NCBI GenBank assembly: GCA_947624005.1
Contig: CANQHV010000001.1
Span: 177,432 to 241,431, forward strand
From: an uncultured Clostridia bacterium
GTDB lineage: Bacteria > Bacillota > Clostridia > Christensenellales > Borkfalkiaceae
Length of the DNA: 64,000 nt
Direction: 5' to 3'
Shown here: piece by piece, positions 18,111 to 22,636 of the stretch
How the letters are laid out: the number at the start of each line of letters is the position of its first letter
Numbering within the stretch: the first letter of the stretch is position 1
The notes under the pieces: model-generated
What the model saw: the letters and a program-made list of their open reading frames with translations, nothing else
The model's database searches: none
What the model was told of the DNA's origin: nothing
Program-made: the position numbers and the translations under genes

Positions 18111-18971
18111 ATGAAAATCTGTATTGCGGGTCTGGGACTTATAGGCGGTTCGCTTGCGCTTGCGCTTAAACGCGCGGGTTATAAAGTCTGCGGTTACAAC
18201 CGTACCCGCGAAAAGCTTGACTACGCGCTGTCGCACGGCGTGGTAGACGAAGCGGCGGACGGTTTTTCGGACTTCGACGTCGTTTTCGTCGCGCTTCCGC
18301 CCGAGGCGTGCGTAAATTTCATAAATTCCGCGAACTTCAAAGACGGCGCGGTTGTCGCCGACATATGCGGCGTAAAAAGGCGGCTCGAACTCGAAGTCTA
18401 CTCTCGCCCGCGCAACTTTTTCTACGTCGGTTGCCACCCGATGGCGGGCAAAGAGGTTTCGGGCGTCGAAAACGCCTGCGCCGACCTTTTCGACAAGGCG
18501 AGTATGGTAATAACGACTTGCGAAAAGACCGACCCCGCCGCAAAAGAAAAGATAATAAAGCTTACCCGCGATATGGGCTTTGCCTGCGTCGTGGAGTGTT
18601 CGGCGGCGGCGCACGATAAAAAAATAGCGTACACCAGCCAATTGCCGCACGTGCTTTCGAACGCGTACGCGTCCTCGCCCTCGATAAAATCGAGCCTCGG
18701 TTTTACGGGCGGAAGTTTCGACGATATGACGCGTATAGCGGGCGTGGACGAGGTCGGTTGGTCGTCGCTGTACGTTATAAACGGCGAAAATCTCGCCGAG
18801 GAAATCACGACGGTAATACGCGCGCTCGAAAGAATAAAAGAAGCCGTGCAGTCGGGTGACAAAAAGGCGCTTGCGCAAGTTCTCGCCGACAATAAATCGG
18901 CGTATGTAAGCGGCGAAAGGTCGCTTTCTTCGCCCGAATTCAAAATAACGCAACTAAAAAAGAACAAATGA
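18111..18971 (+). CDS. tyrA: Prephenate dehydrogenase
   Basis: The 286-residue enzyme has an N-terminal NAD-binding Rossmann fold (IAGLGLIGGS at residues 4-13) and a helical C-terminal half with the conserved YVGCHPMAGKE and the SQLPHVLSNA helix. It oxidatively decarboxylates prephenate to hydroxyphenylpyruvate for tyrosine synthesis. No C-terminal ACT domain is present, so feedback control by tyrosine through ACT is not expected. Other aromatic genes are not adjacent. Its stop overlaps the start of the next gene by four bases, and it heads a plus-strand run reaching yhbY. Confidence 0.94.
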   Translation: MKICIAGLGLIGGSLALALKRAGYKVCGYNRTREKLDYALSHGVVDEAADGFSDFDVVFVALPPEACVNFINSANFKDGAVVADICGVKRRLELEVYSRPRNFFYVGCHPMAGKEVSGVENACADLFDKASMVITTCEKTDPAAKEKIIKLTRDMGFACVVECSAAAHDKKIAYTSQLPHVLSNAYASSPSIKSSLGFTGGSFDDMTRIAGVDEVGWSSLYVINGENLAEEITTVIRALERIKEAVQSGDKKALAQVLADNKSAYVSGERSLSSPEFKITQLKKNK

Positions 18972-19369
18972 AAGGTTTTCTGACAATAGCCTCGGAAGGC
19001 GCAAACTATTCCGAAGAAATAACCGTCCCCGCCGAAATCGACGCGCTGGGCGGCGCGGTGCGCGTCGCCTACTATCTCGACGGCGACAAATGCCTTTTGA
19101 CAGTTGCGGGCGACACGGTTACGCAGTACAGAAAGGGCGGAATAGACACCGTATTGAAATTCGTCGCGGGCGCGGAAACGCCGTGTACTGTTTCGTCGGG
19201 CGGGCTTGAAACGCATTTCAGCGCATACACCGAAAGACTGTTATACAAGGAAACGGTCGGGGGCTTTACCCTCGATATACGCTATAAAAGCGAAATAAAC
19301 GGGGTCGTCCGTTTGAAAATAAAAACGACGTGCGCCGAAACGGGCGCAAAGGAGATTTATGAAGATTGA
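18968..19369 (+). CDS. DUF1934 (YwiB-like) beta-barrel protein
   Basis: A 133-residue protein, mostly alternating beta-strand sequence, starting GFLTIASEGANYSEEI and containing a YRKGG and a YTERLLYKE segment as in DUF1934/YwiB proteins. These have a lipocalin-like barrel and no assigned function. Its ATG overlaps the tyrA stop and its end overlaps the next gene by 11 bases, so all three are translated together. Assignment rests on overall resemblance and size. Confidence 0.7.
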   Translation: MKGFLTIASEGANYSEEITVPAEIDALGGAVRVAYYLDGDKCLLTVAGDTVTQYRKGGIDTVLKFVAGAETPCTVSSGGLETHFSAYTERLLYKETVGGFTLDIRYKSEINGVVRLKIKTTCAETGAKEIYED

Positions 19370-20009
19370 ATATCTCGGGCATTCTTGCTTCAAACTGACC
19401 GAAAGCACGGGTACAAGCGTAGTATGCGACCCGTACGGCGCAGAAGTGGGTTATAAAATGCCCGCGGTAAAGGCGGACCTCGTCACCGTATCGCACAACC
19501 ATTTCGACCATAACGCCGTAAAAAACGTCGGCGGAAAGCCCAAAGTACTCGACGGCGACTGCAACCTCGACTTCAACGGCGTGAAAATCACGGCTATAAA
19601 GTCTTTTCACGACGGGGTACGCGGTAAAAAGCGCGGCGAAAACACGATTTTCAAATTCCGAATGGACGGTATCGATATCTGCCACCTCGGCGACCTCGGC
19701 GAGGCGTGTTCGCCCGAGCTTATCGAGCTTATTCTGCCCGTAAACGTTCTTTTGATACCCGTCGGCGGCAATTACACCATCGACGCGGAAATGGCGAAAG
19801 AATATGTCGAGCGCATTATGCCCGAGGTGGTAATTCCGATGCATTACCGCACGAAAGACTGCAAGATAGATATCGACAAGGCGGACGACTTTCTGGAAAT
19901 GTTCGACGAAGAAGAAATATACGACGACGGCAACAGCGAAATAGAGTTTGCGCGCAGCGACTTCGACAATTCGCCCGACACGCGCGTTATAGTATTGAGG
20001 AGAGAGTGA
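19359..20009 (+). CDS. UlaG-like metallo-beta-lactamase-fold hydrolase
   Basis: The 216-residue protein begins with MKIEYLGHSC, typical of UlaG-type MBL proteins. The metal-binding HxHxDH motif is at residues 46-51 (HNHFDH), with further ligands in the HLGDLG and MHYRTK segments. Such enzymes hydrolyse phosphoester or lactone substrates; the substrate here is unknown. It lies between the DUF1934 gene and the Rho-like gene, overlapping both (one base with the latter as TGATG). Confidence 0.88.
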   Translation: MKIEYLGHSCFKLTESTGTSVVCDPYGAEVGYKMPAVKADLVTVSHNHFDHNAVKNVGGKPKVLDGDCNLDFNGVKITAIKSFHDGVRGKKRGENTIFKFRMDGIDICHLGDLGEACSPELIELILPVNVLLIPVGGNYTIDAEMAKEYVERIMPEVVIPMHYRTKDCKIDIDKADDFLEMFDEEEIYDDGNSEIEFARSDFDNSPDTRVIVLRRE

Positions 20010-21355
20010 TGCAGGTCCGCCCCGAAGAATTGCTTGACAATATATTGGGCAGGCTCAACCGTAAAACCATACACGAATTAAGGCAGATAGGTCGGGTATG
20101 CGGCGTATTCCGCCCCGCGGACGGCAAAAAAGAGCGTATAATCGACGACCTTGCCAAAATCGCGCGCGGGGAACTTCAACCCGCGCCCCGAACCAACCGC
20201 GGCGCGCCCCCCAAGTCCGACGAATACGACAGACAGCTCGTCGCCGATTTCGAAAGGTGCAGGGCGTGCTTTATCGCGGCGGAAAACGGCGGCGACGGGG
20301 CTTACACGCTTACCCTTTCGGACGCGGTCGAGGACGTAGACGGCTTCGGGATACTGTATAAGTCGGGAAAAAACTATTTTCTCGCTTCAAGCGGCGGCGG
20401 CTTTTCGCGCGAGGACGTATTCGTTGACGAATCGTTCGTAACCCGCTTCAATCTGAAAGAGGGCGACAAAATAGTCGGCGCGGCGCGCAAAAAAGAGGGC
20501 AAAACCGCGGGGCTTTCCGCGATTTCATCGGTCAACGGCGGCGCGCCCGAAGAGTGCCTTAAAAGACCCGATTTCGACAAATTGCCCCCCGAATATGCCT
20601 CGGTTAAGCTCAATTTAAGCGGAATGGGCGCGGCGGGTAAACTTATAGATTTATGCGCTCCGCTCGCGCTCGGACAGCGCGGAATAATAGCGGGGGAAAA
20701 AAGGACGGGCGCGACTACGCTCTGCCTTGCAATCGCCCGCGAGATAAGCGAAAAATATCGGGATATAAGCCTTGTTTTGCTTTTGACGGGGGCAAGACCC
20801 GAAGAAGTTTCGCTCTTTTCCGAAATAGGCGCGCAGCTTTTTTATTCGACGTTCGACAAAAGCGACGAGGAAAAAACGGCGCTTTCTTCGCTTGCCCTCG
20901 AATACGCGAAGCGCAGAACGGAAGCAGGCAATAATACCGTGCTTATATGCGACGGGCTGACCCGTCTTAACCGCGCGTTCGTAAATCTTGCGCGCGTCGG
21001 CGGCGATTCGTCCACGGGCGCGAAAAAATTTATGTCCTGCGCCAAGGCGTGCGGCGGCTGTTCGCTTACGGTGATAGCCACCGTTTTAAAAGGCGCGGGC
21101 GGCGCGGACGGCGATTTTTACGACGAAATTTCCGAGGCGTGCAATTGGCAGGTAAGCCTTTCGGAGGAATTGCGTCTTAAAAGGCAATTTCCCGCAATCG
21201 ATATTGTAAATTCCTATTCGGCAAGCGCCGAAAAGGTAAATTCCGAAGCCGAGGCGGCAAAACTTTCCTCTCTTTTGAAAGCCGACCCCGCAAAAGCCGT
21301 GGAACTTGCGAATATTGACGGAGTATATAGCGACTTTTTGGATAAAATAAAGTAG
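20009..21355 (+). CDS. rho: Rho-like protein with degraded ATPase motifs
   Basis: The 448-residue protein matches transcription termination factor Rho along its length. It has an N-terminal helical RhoN region (KTIHELRQIGRVCGV), an OB-fold with DGFGIL and VTRFNLKEGD, and a RecA-type motor with RPEEVS, DGLTRLNRA and RQFPAID. Two catalytic motifs are broken. The P-loop reads GEKRTGATT (229-237) with A235 in place of the essential lysine, and the DERPEEV motif reads TGARPEEV, so the catalytic glutamate is A262 and the preceding Asp is G261. It may bind RNA without efficient ATP hydrolysis. A canonical Rho could exist elsewhere in the genome. I start at ATG 20009; the frame extends upstream inside the hydrolase gene. 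Confidence 0.85.
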   Translation: MQVRPEELLDNILGRLNRKTIHELRQIGRVCGVFRPADGKKERIIDDLAKIARGELQPAPRTNRGAPPKSDEYDRQLVADFERCRACFIAAENGGDGAYTLTLSDAVEDVDGFGILYKSGKNYFLASSGGGFSREDVFVDESFVTRFNLKEGDKIVGAARKKEGKTAGLSAISSVNGGAPEECLKRPDFDKLPPEYASVKLNLSGMGAAGKLIDLCAPLALGQRGIIAGEKRTGATTLCLAIAREISEKYRDISLVLLLTGARPEEVSLFSEIGAQLFYSTFDKSDEEKTALSSLALEYAKRRTEAGNNTVLICDGLTRLNRAFVNLARVGGDSSTGAKKFMSCAKACGGCSLTVIATVLKGAGGADGDFYDEISEACNWQVSLSEELRLKRQFPAIDIVNSYSASAEKVNSEAEAAKLSSLLKADPAKAVELANIDGVYSDFLDKIK

Positions 21356-22636
21356 ATGGCAGATAAAAATTTATTTACCGACAAAGTAAAAATAACTGTA
21401 AAATCGGGCGACGGCGGCGACGGAATGAATTCGTTCAAGTCGTATAAAGGCAAGCCCGCCTGCGGTCCCGACGGCGGCGACGGCGGCGACGGCGGCGCGG
21501 TATACGTCGTTGCGGACGGGTCTTTGTCGGACCTTCTTTTTTACCGTTTCACCACCAAATTCACGGCGGGTGACGGCGAGCGCGGCGGAAGCAACAAACG
21601 CTTCGGCAAGCGCGGCGGCGACGTCGTTTTGAAAGTGCCCGTCGGCACAATCGTAAAAGACGCCGAAACGGGCGTCGTGATTTCGGATATGTTCTGCGAC
21701 GGCGAAAAAAAGCTTATCGCCGAGGGCGGCAGGGGCGGTAAGGGCAACGTCCGCTTTACCACGGCGACGCGGCACGCGCCCAACTTCGCGCAAAAAGGCG
21801 AAAAAACAAGCGCGCATACGCTTATTCTCGAACTCAAAGTAATAGCCGACGTGGGCATAATAGGCTTTCCCAACGTAGGCAAAAGCACTTTGCTTTCCAA
21901 AATTTCCGCGGCGAAACCCAAAATCGCCGATTATCATTTTACCACTCTTTCACCCAATCTCGGCGTAGTTTCGTACTACGACGACTCGTTTGTCGCCGCG
22001 GACATTCCGGGGCTTATCGAGGGCGCGTCTGCGGGCGCGGGGTTGGGTCACGACTTTTTAAGGCATATCGAGCGCACGCGTATGCTTTTGCACGTCGTGG
22101 ATATTTCGGGCGTCGAGGGCAGAAATCCCGTCGACGACTTCGTAAAAATCAACGCCGAACTTTCGGGGTACAGCAAAAAACTCGCCGCGTTGCCGCAGAT
22201 TATAGCCCTTAACAAATCGGACGGTTACGACGCGGAGAAAAACGCGGCGGCGTTTATAAAAAAATACGGAAAAAAATACAAAATTTTTTCGATTTCCGCC
22301 ATAAAAGGCGAGGGGTTGAACGAATTGCTTTCCGCAATATGCGAAACGCTTAAAACCCTGCCGCCCGTCGGGCGCGTGGAAAGCGACGAAAACTTCACAT
22401 ACAGAAAGCCCGCCGACCTCGGCTTTGAAATTTACGAGGACGACGGCGCGTTCGTGGTGGTGGGGTCGCTTGTCGATATGCTGTGCCGTAACGTCGCTTT
22501 GAACGACGCGGACTCTATGGCTTATTTTCAGAAGATTCTGCGCGAAAAGGGCGTTATAGAAAAGCTTAAAGAACTCGGCGCAAAAGAAAACGACACCGTT
22601 ATAATAGGCGATGTCGAATTTGATTTCATACCTTAA
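21356..22636 (+). CDS. obgE: GTPase Obg
   Basis: The 426-residue protein has the glycine-rich Obg domain at the N-terminus (GGDGGDGGAVYVVAD) and a central GTPase domain with GFPNVGKST (G1), DIPGLIEGA (G3) and NKSD (G4). A C-terminal OCT domain (FEIYEDDGAFVVVG) marks the Firmicute form. Obg acts in 50S ribosome assembly and stress responses. It starts on the base after the Rho-like gene's stop and is followed by yhbY, another 50S-associated factor. Confidence 0.97.
   Translation: MADKNLFTDKVKITVKSGDGGDGMNSFKSYKGKPACGPDGGDGGDGGAVYVVADGSLSDLLFYRFTTKFTAGDGERGGSNKRFGKRGGDVVLKVPVGTIVKDAETGVVISDMFCDGEKKLIAEGGRGGKGNVRFTTATRHAPNFAQKGEKTSAHTLILELKVIADVGIIGFPNVGKSTLLSKISAAKPKIADYHFTTLSPNLGVVSYYDDSFVAADIPGLIEGASAGAGLGHDFLRHIERTRMLLHVVDISGVEGRNPVDDFVKINAELSGYSKKLAALPQIIALNKSDGYDAEKNAAAFIKKYGKKYKIFSISAIKGEGLNELLSAICETLKTLPPVGRVESDENFTYRKPADLGFEIYEDDGAFVVVGSLVDMLCRNVALNDADSMAYFQKILREKGVIEKLKELGAKENDTVIIGDVEFDFIP

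Follow-up and report, generated by a model that had tools for sequence, protein, structure and literature searches.

The window, the whole 64,000-nucleotide stretch of DNA that was analysed, holds a rho-like gene between mbl and obg (Table 1). Base 20009 is both the last of the mbl stop codon and the first of the rho start codon, and the obg start at 21356 follows directly on the rho stop codon, in agreement with a preliminary description of an intact gene with tight junctions to both neighbors. A 133-aa ORF at window positions 18968–19369, without NCBIfam match, lies between prephenate dehydrogenase and mbl and is found in most relatives at the locus.

Table 1. Features of the mbl–rho–obg locus (coordinates of the window)
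Feature	Coordinates	Strand	Evidence or remark
mbl, metal-dependent hydrolase, 1-base overlap with rho	19359..20009	+	NF001911 80.6 bits, under the cut-off of 144; synteny
rho-like gene (pseudo-Rho), 448 aa, catalytic residues lost	20009..21355	+	uninterrupted ORF
N-terminal module, residues 1–85: helical Rho_N-like part and RGAPPKS linker	20009..20263	+	conservation in the dead clade like that in canonical species
OB fold, putative primary RNA-binding site, residues 100–181	20306..20551	+	Pfam Rho_RNA_bind 37.9 bits
P-loop GEKRTGATT, Lys replaced by A235 (codon 20711–20713)	20693..20719	+	GAT also in P0002–P0004
TGARPEE, catalytic Asp-Glu replaced by G261-A262 (20789–20794)	20786..20806	+	GARPEE also in P0002–P0004
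Walker B region ICDGLTRLNRA with Asp retained (D315)	20945..20977	+	motif alignment
Shortened Q-loop region (secondary RNA site)	20978..21016 (approximate boundaries)	+	8 residues against 16 in 27/27 canonical relatives
Arginine-finger position, A405 in the window	21221..21223	+	R366 equivalent missing from 37/37 dead-clade sequences
obg GTPase, abuts rho	21356..22636	+	NF008955 519 bits, over the cut-off; synteny

The protein belongs to the Rho family: an OB fold (Rho_RNA_bind) is followed by a RecA-type domain (ATP-synt_ab), both over the Pfam cut-offs, and the predicted structure is a confident Rho fold. With Rho of E. coli and B. subtilis (TIGR00767 / NF006886) it shares the domain order and the OB and RecA folds, and its locus is orthologous within the genus. 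Its scores against the Rho equivalog models are far under the curated cut-offs (180.7 against 509.45 for TIGR00767; 198.2 against 315 for NF006886). The TIGR00767 score alone is not decisive, since canonical relatives of the genus also fall below that cut-off (452–477 bits). The short-form Rho paralogue model NF041509 (paralog_Rho2) is likewise Rho-like, but is matched with 165.8 bits where 628 are needed, and it describes a paralogue, whereas no rho besides the window gene was found in the same genome.

Unlike canonical Rho, the window protein lacks the P-loop lysine, the catalytic Asp-Glu, the arginine finger, R347 and most of the Q-loop. In E. coli numbering, K184 corresponds to A235, D210 to G261 and E211 to A262, so that DER of DERPEE reads GAR. 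Motif alignment confirms these replacements, described earlier as GAT for GKT and GA for DE, together with the DGLTRLNRA region and its aspartate. The arginine finger R366 has become A405, with no arginine near this position, unlike in some clade members, and R347 has become E386. Among the residues that mark a functional Rho, the Walker A lysine, catalytic glutamate and arginine finger are gone and only the Walker B aspartate is kept. Neither loop of the secondary RNA site has its functional form: the Q-loop segment comprises 8 residues instead of 16–17, and the R-loop equivalents of T323 and K326 are G362 and G365. In the OB fold, the RNA contacts F64 and R88 have kept their equivalents, while R66 is changed to A and E108 to K. 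With ATPase and RNA-pulling sites mutated, ATP hydrolysis and RNA translocation are predicted to be impossible.

The genome to which the window belongs has 1.22 Mb and is 77.2% complete; a second, canonical rho had been thought worth seeking there, and the genome's single TIGR00767 match is this gene. The search covered a genus set of 37 genomes, 19 of which fall in the window's clade, 15 of these 19 being at least 90% complete. No second rho was found in the 19 clade genomes: a single locus is present in 17, and two lack it. In one of the latter (G009) obg lies at a contig edge; in the other (G025, 93% complete) mbl is directly followed by obg, with no rho match elsewhere in the genome. A canonical Rho hidden in this clade is unlikely. 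The earlier suggestion of an antagonist of Rho loses its ground in the same result, because no second Rho on which to act was found in the clade genomes. A dominant-negative or inhibitory partner forming mixed rings with canonical Rho would be helped by the fold, which is predicted to be retained, and in G127, from another family, a canonical Rho is accompanied by a short degenerate copy; as none of the 19 genomes of the window's clade showed a second rho, such a partner is extremely improbable here.

Recurrence of dead Rho among relatives

The three best protein matches after the window's own cluster (P0002–P0004; 99 matches listed, 7998 candidates scored) are 43–46% identical to the window protein and carry GAT and GARPEE exactly. 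The cluster itself, P0001, differs from the window protein at two residues. A scan anchored on obg kept 80 named loci with a related mbl–rho–obg locus out of 146. Among them, 71 have a complete rho ORF, in two the contig ends within rho (L125, L144), three begin at obg (L115, L155, L164), two pass from mbl to obg without rho (L162, L165) and two outgroup loci have no rho in the flank analysed (L166, L167). Complete ORFs were called dead or canonical by a rule on K184, T/S185, E211, D265, R366 and Q-loop length, which gives 43 dead and 28 canonical of 71, or 44 dead of 72 with the window. L112 passes as canonical but looks altered, and was excluded from the canonical set (n = 27). Many of the locus records (L) come from the same genomes as the genome set (G), and the two sets are not independent.

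Because P0002–P0004 share GAT and GARPEE and 43 of 71 ORFs at the same locus are dead, the changes are neither chance nor an assembly quirk. Orthologues with intact motifs, which would have spoken against the preliminary description had the changes been private to this assembly, do occur in sister clades; the nearest relatives of the window, however, have the same changes.

A tree of 81 taxa was built from five flanking proteins by a fast search with SH-aLRT support and rooted on L166/L167. It places the window's group in one 41-taxon clade (SH-aLRT 98.2); in a smaller 39-taxon tree the clade is weakly supported (bootstrap 36). Of the 41 taxa, 37 have a complete rho ORF, in every case open and dead; rho is deleted in two, cut in one and at a contig edge in one. 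The rho tree likewise unites the 37 dead sequences. Dead Rho outside the clade is found in L110 and in six sequences near canonical L127 and L148. Counted without regain, losses number eight and seven on the two trees, and five on both by Fitch parsimony. A single origin of the six sequences near L127 and L148 is not rejected by the AU test (p = 0.137), and the rho tree groups them (0.976). Thus, the rho motor was lost at least three times within the genus, and the six may stand for one to six losses. The same catalytic positions are changed in 6 of the 7 dead sequences outside the clade; this pattern, considered as a test of convergence, was dropped, since with a single origin of the six not rejected these are not seven independent events.

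A wider scan of 121 genomes of the order (E 1e-13) gave 106 genomes with a match, 77 of them over the cut-off, and 15 genomes without match. Calls of dead Rho were made by eye on selected stretches (nine low scorers or second copies, three controls and two others). By this means dead Rho was recognized in family f4 (G039, G088, G104, G118, G154), f9 (G044), f26 (G114) and f29 (G065, G102), and in another genome of the genus (G157); the three control stretches are canonical Rho. At the same threshold, the other sampled members of f26 (six) and f29 (five) have no Rho match. The copies in G114, G065 and G102 (L200, L201 and L202) are very divergent full-length remnants of Rho in families otherwise without match. 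In G127, of family f28, a degenerate 373-aa Rho (L203, G127:C70:1010-1864) stands beside a canonical one (603 bits) and is a candidate Rho antagonist.

The genus, Ca. Coproplasma, was placed by its describers in the Christensenellales, family Borkfalkiaceae, according to PMC8035907; the NCBI taxonomy gives Clostridia, Eubacteriales incertae sedis. Judging by record titles, several relatives come from gut samples of chicken, rabbit ('Lapin' being taken as rabbit) or deer.

Residues lost, residues kept and selection

Losses in the dead clade (n = 37, against 27 canonical sequences) are concentrated in the catalytic and RNA-pulling machinery. The arginine finger is kept in 0/37 against 27/27, DER in 0/37 against 26/27 and E211 in 5/37 against 27/27. 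The Q-loop is shorter than 10 residues in 26 of the 37 and has 16 in all 27 canonical sequences; T323 of the R-loop persists in one dead sequence. Some clade members have an arginine one residue off the finger position, where a shifted finger is possible. Other positions are often kept in the clade, i.e. the P-loop lysine (29/37), Walker B aspartate (30/37), E214 (37/37) and, in the OB fold, F64 as F or Y (33/37) and R88 as R or K (34/37). In E. coli, E211A abolishes hydrolysis and leaves ATP binding and oligomers intact, and M. tuberculosis E386A also keeps both but does not hydrolyse ATP, as reported in PMC4499133. The window protein shares the Glu to Ala change with these laboratory mutants; it differs in being natural, in having lost several more catalytic and RNA-pulling sites and in that its losses are kept across species. 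For most of the dead clade the pattern is as expected for a protein that binds ATP but does not burn it. The distribution suggests that hydrolysis was lost first and the P-loop lysine later, in the window's sublineage; there, with this lysine gone, nucleotide binding was probably lost as well. The RGAPPKS linker (window 20198–20218, residues 64–70) hardly varies within the genus, whether Rho is canonical or dead.

Constraint was measured as dN/dS by NG86, in which values at dS > 1 are imprecise. Five close pairs of dead sequences have low ω: 0.158 for L095/L102 (dS 0.11), 0.131 for L099/L131 (dS 0.31), 0.090 for L092/L122 (dS 0.89), 0.125 for L104/L121 (dS 0.98) and 0.275 for L093/L128 (dS 1.09), with bootstrap upper limits of 0.124–0.348. 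Simulated neutral drift predicts from 5.4 to 18.1 stops in these pairs. The first four keep the P-loop lysine and Walker B aspartate. L093/L128 has lost the P-loop threonine, E211, D265 and R366, so that its constraint can hardly serve an ATPase. Three further dead pairs give 0.160–0.266 at dS 1.1–2.0, and four canonical pairs 0.08–0.17. Distant dead pairs are relaxed (L141/L146 0.51; L142/L149 0.38; L153/L158 0.56), and the window stands at dN 0.72 and dS 1.63 from G013. Dead Rho is therefore under purifying selection among close kin, relaxed over longer spans. Catalytic loss and purifying selection, the two marks of a pseudoenzyme, are both present, selection being measured in relatives of the same clade and not in the window's own gene. 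The earlier statement that the gene is maintained is upheld by dN/dS among close relatives and qualified by the deletion of rho in two sister records and by a stop in the copy of G021.

That copy (L052, G021:C84:15986-17253) has its rho split over two frames, with a TAA; no other interrupted copy was seen in this clade, and the break may be an assembly error.

These signs of loss invite the view that Rho is dispensable in the genus and is slowly decaying, with ORFs that have no function of their own, are dying at different stages and stay open through drift or because their translation is coupled to that of obg. The clean deletions in L162 and L165, the interrupted G021 copy, the higher dN/dS of distant pairs, and families f26 and f29, where most sampled members have no match and three hold remnants, all accord with it, and coupling could operate where rho abuts obg. 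Coupling alone, however, would constrain stops and not amino acids, and the five close pairs have ω of 0.09–0.28 where neutrality predicts 5–18 stops. All 37 complete ORFs of the clade are open, and their N-terminal module has kept the canonical level of conservation. Decay is thus unlikely, though it deserves to be kept in mind.

Constraint is unevenly spread along the protein. The fraction of columns at least 80% identical in dead and canonical sequences is 0.36 and 0.38 in the N-terminal module (residues 1–85), 0.17 and 0.60 in the OB fold, and 0.12 and 0.66 in the RecA domain. Flanking controls show no such fall (dead/canonical: obg 0.74/0.71, pgk 0.85/0.83, mbl 0.60/0.59, nadD 0.45/0.39, rsfS 0.66/0.63). 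Similarly, P0001 is 63–70% identical to P0002–P0004 in the N-terminal module, 33–45% in the OB fold and 41–43% in RecA. The module alone might then matter, binding RNA, RNA polymerase or another partner, with OB and motor domains as mere scaffold and no need for an RNA-binding ring. The N-terminal side of Rho can indeed contact RNA polymerase, as described in PMC9908020, although the same account doubts that this contact matters for termination. Against such a role, the RecA domain is constrained too (ω 0.06–0.26 between close dead pairs) and is predicted to fold well, and none of the 71 complete ORFs is truncated to the module. A function confined to the N-terminal module is accordingly rated as distinctly improbable.

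Signals outside rho and a possible motor-free role

Loss of termination might leave traces outside rho. Following an idea from PMC13323073, purine content at fourfold sites was compared in flanking genes. For genes on the rho strand, 19 dead-clade genomes have a value of 0.402 and 14 canonical genomes one of 0.388 (p = 0.16), and the opposite strand gives no difference either (p = 0.20); the value is below 0.5 in every genome. Four dead genomes outside the clade, few and close kin, have 0.317 against 0.383 in their canonical neighbor G001, the direction that lost termination would predict. Intrinsic terminators, by a crude measure, exceed a reversed-sequence null by 2.6 per 10 kb at 35 dead or rho-less loci and by 2.1 at 26 canonical ones (p = 0.69); at seven other dead loci their density is under the null. 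NusG is found in 34 of the 37 genomes of the genus and in 24/24 of good quality. No co-change of NusG with dead Rho was seen by eye in 28 sequences (G024, G036 and four matched genomes left out). The NusG of G025 is the lowest of the 34 matches (134.1 bits, under the cut-off).

Might the protein still terminate transcription, either by a hydrolysis-free route in which it binds RNA polymerase and inactivates it, or through an active site of unusual design? NusG, alike in dead and canonical species, the retained Walker B aspartate and the unchanged purine content of flanking genes in the clade are compatible with this. The loss of catalytic glutamate, arginine finger, R347 and Q-loop together is not easily reconciled with it, and a claim of motor-free termination by M. 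tuberculosis Rho is contradicted by later work, as presented in PMC4499133. Continued termination is very improbable.

The reading that fits best, and that is held to be probable with some reserve, is a full-length Rho with mutated motor sites that is kept as a motor-free, RNA-binding ring. The protein would still assemble into a ring and hold RNA through its OB fold, and the N-terminal module, as the best-kept part, would be the surface that matters most. Rho-dependent termination by pulling would be gone in these cells, while contact with NusG would be possible for a dead Rho. Both a non-hydrolysing RNA-binding hexamer and a Rho that has lost termination function, offered earlier as separate options, would fit this pattern of residues and are mutually compatible. 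Several observations weigh against a maintained ring: two rho deletions, one copy with a stop, the relaxed distant dead pairs, the partial loss of RNA contacts in the window (R66, E108), the strong fall in conservation of the OB and motor domains in the clade relative to canonical species, and the lack of a clade-wide shift in purine content or terminator density. It is tempting, though somewhat speculative, to extend the proposal to an ATPase-independent task of Rho that outlives termination. Ca. Coproplasma, in at least three of its lineages, and several other families of the order would then have motorless RNA-binding rings, retained over many speciations after Rho-dependent termination was given up.

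Pseudoenzymes are catalytically dead homologues kept under selection, and the window Rho resembles them. Work on Rho treats it as a motor, and accounts of its loss in evolution usually record whether the gene is present or absent. In this genus, stages are seen at one conserved locus, i.e. working, motor-dead but selected, and deleted; side by side, they open the question of what a Rho that is unable to pull still does. A motor-free role, if true, would bear on models that have Rho bind RNA polymerase and inactivate it ahead of translocation. Text searches of part of the literature found no natural ATPase-dead Rho, a result that leaves novelty unproven. A recent study of Rho conservation, by the account given in PMC11829017, used complete genomes only and would on that basis miss genera known from MAGs. 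Dead Rho can also escape automatic annotation: three related proteins in the search are named hypothetical protein, and scores are under the Rho cut-offs.

Loss of ATP synthase in dead-Rho genomes was considered and rejected, the V-type A subunit being over its cut-off in 15 of the 19 clade genomes. This subunit passes in 18 of the 37 genomes, the other three being canonical (G007, G023, G032); most remaining genomes of the genus have partial ATP synthase matches only, which look F-type.
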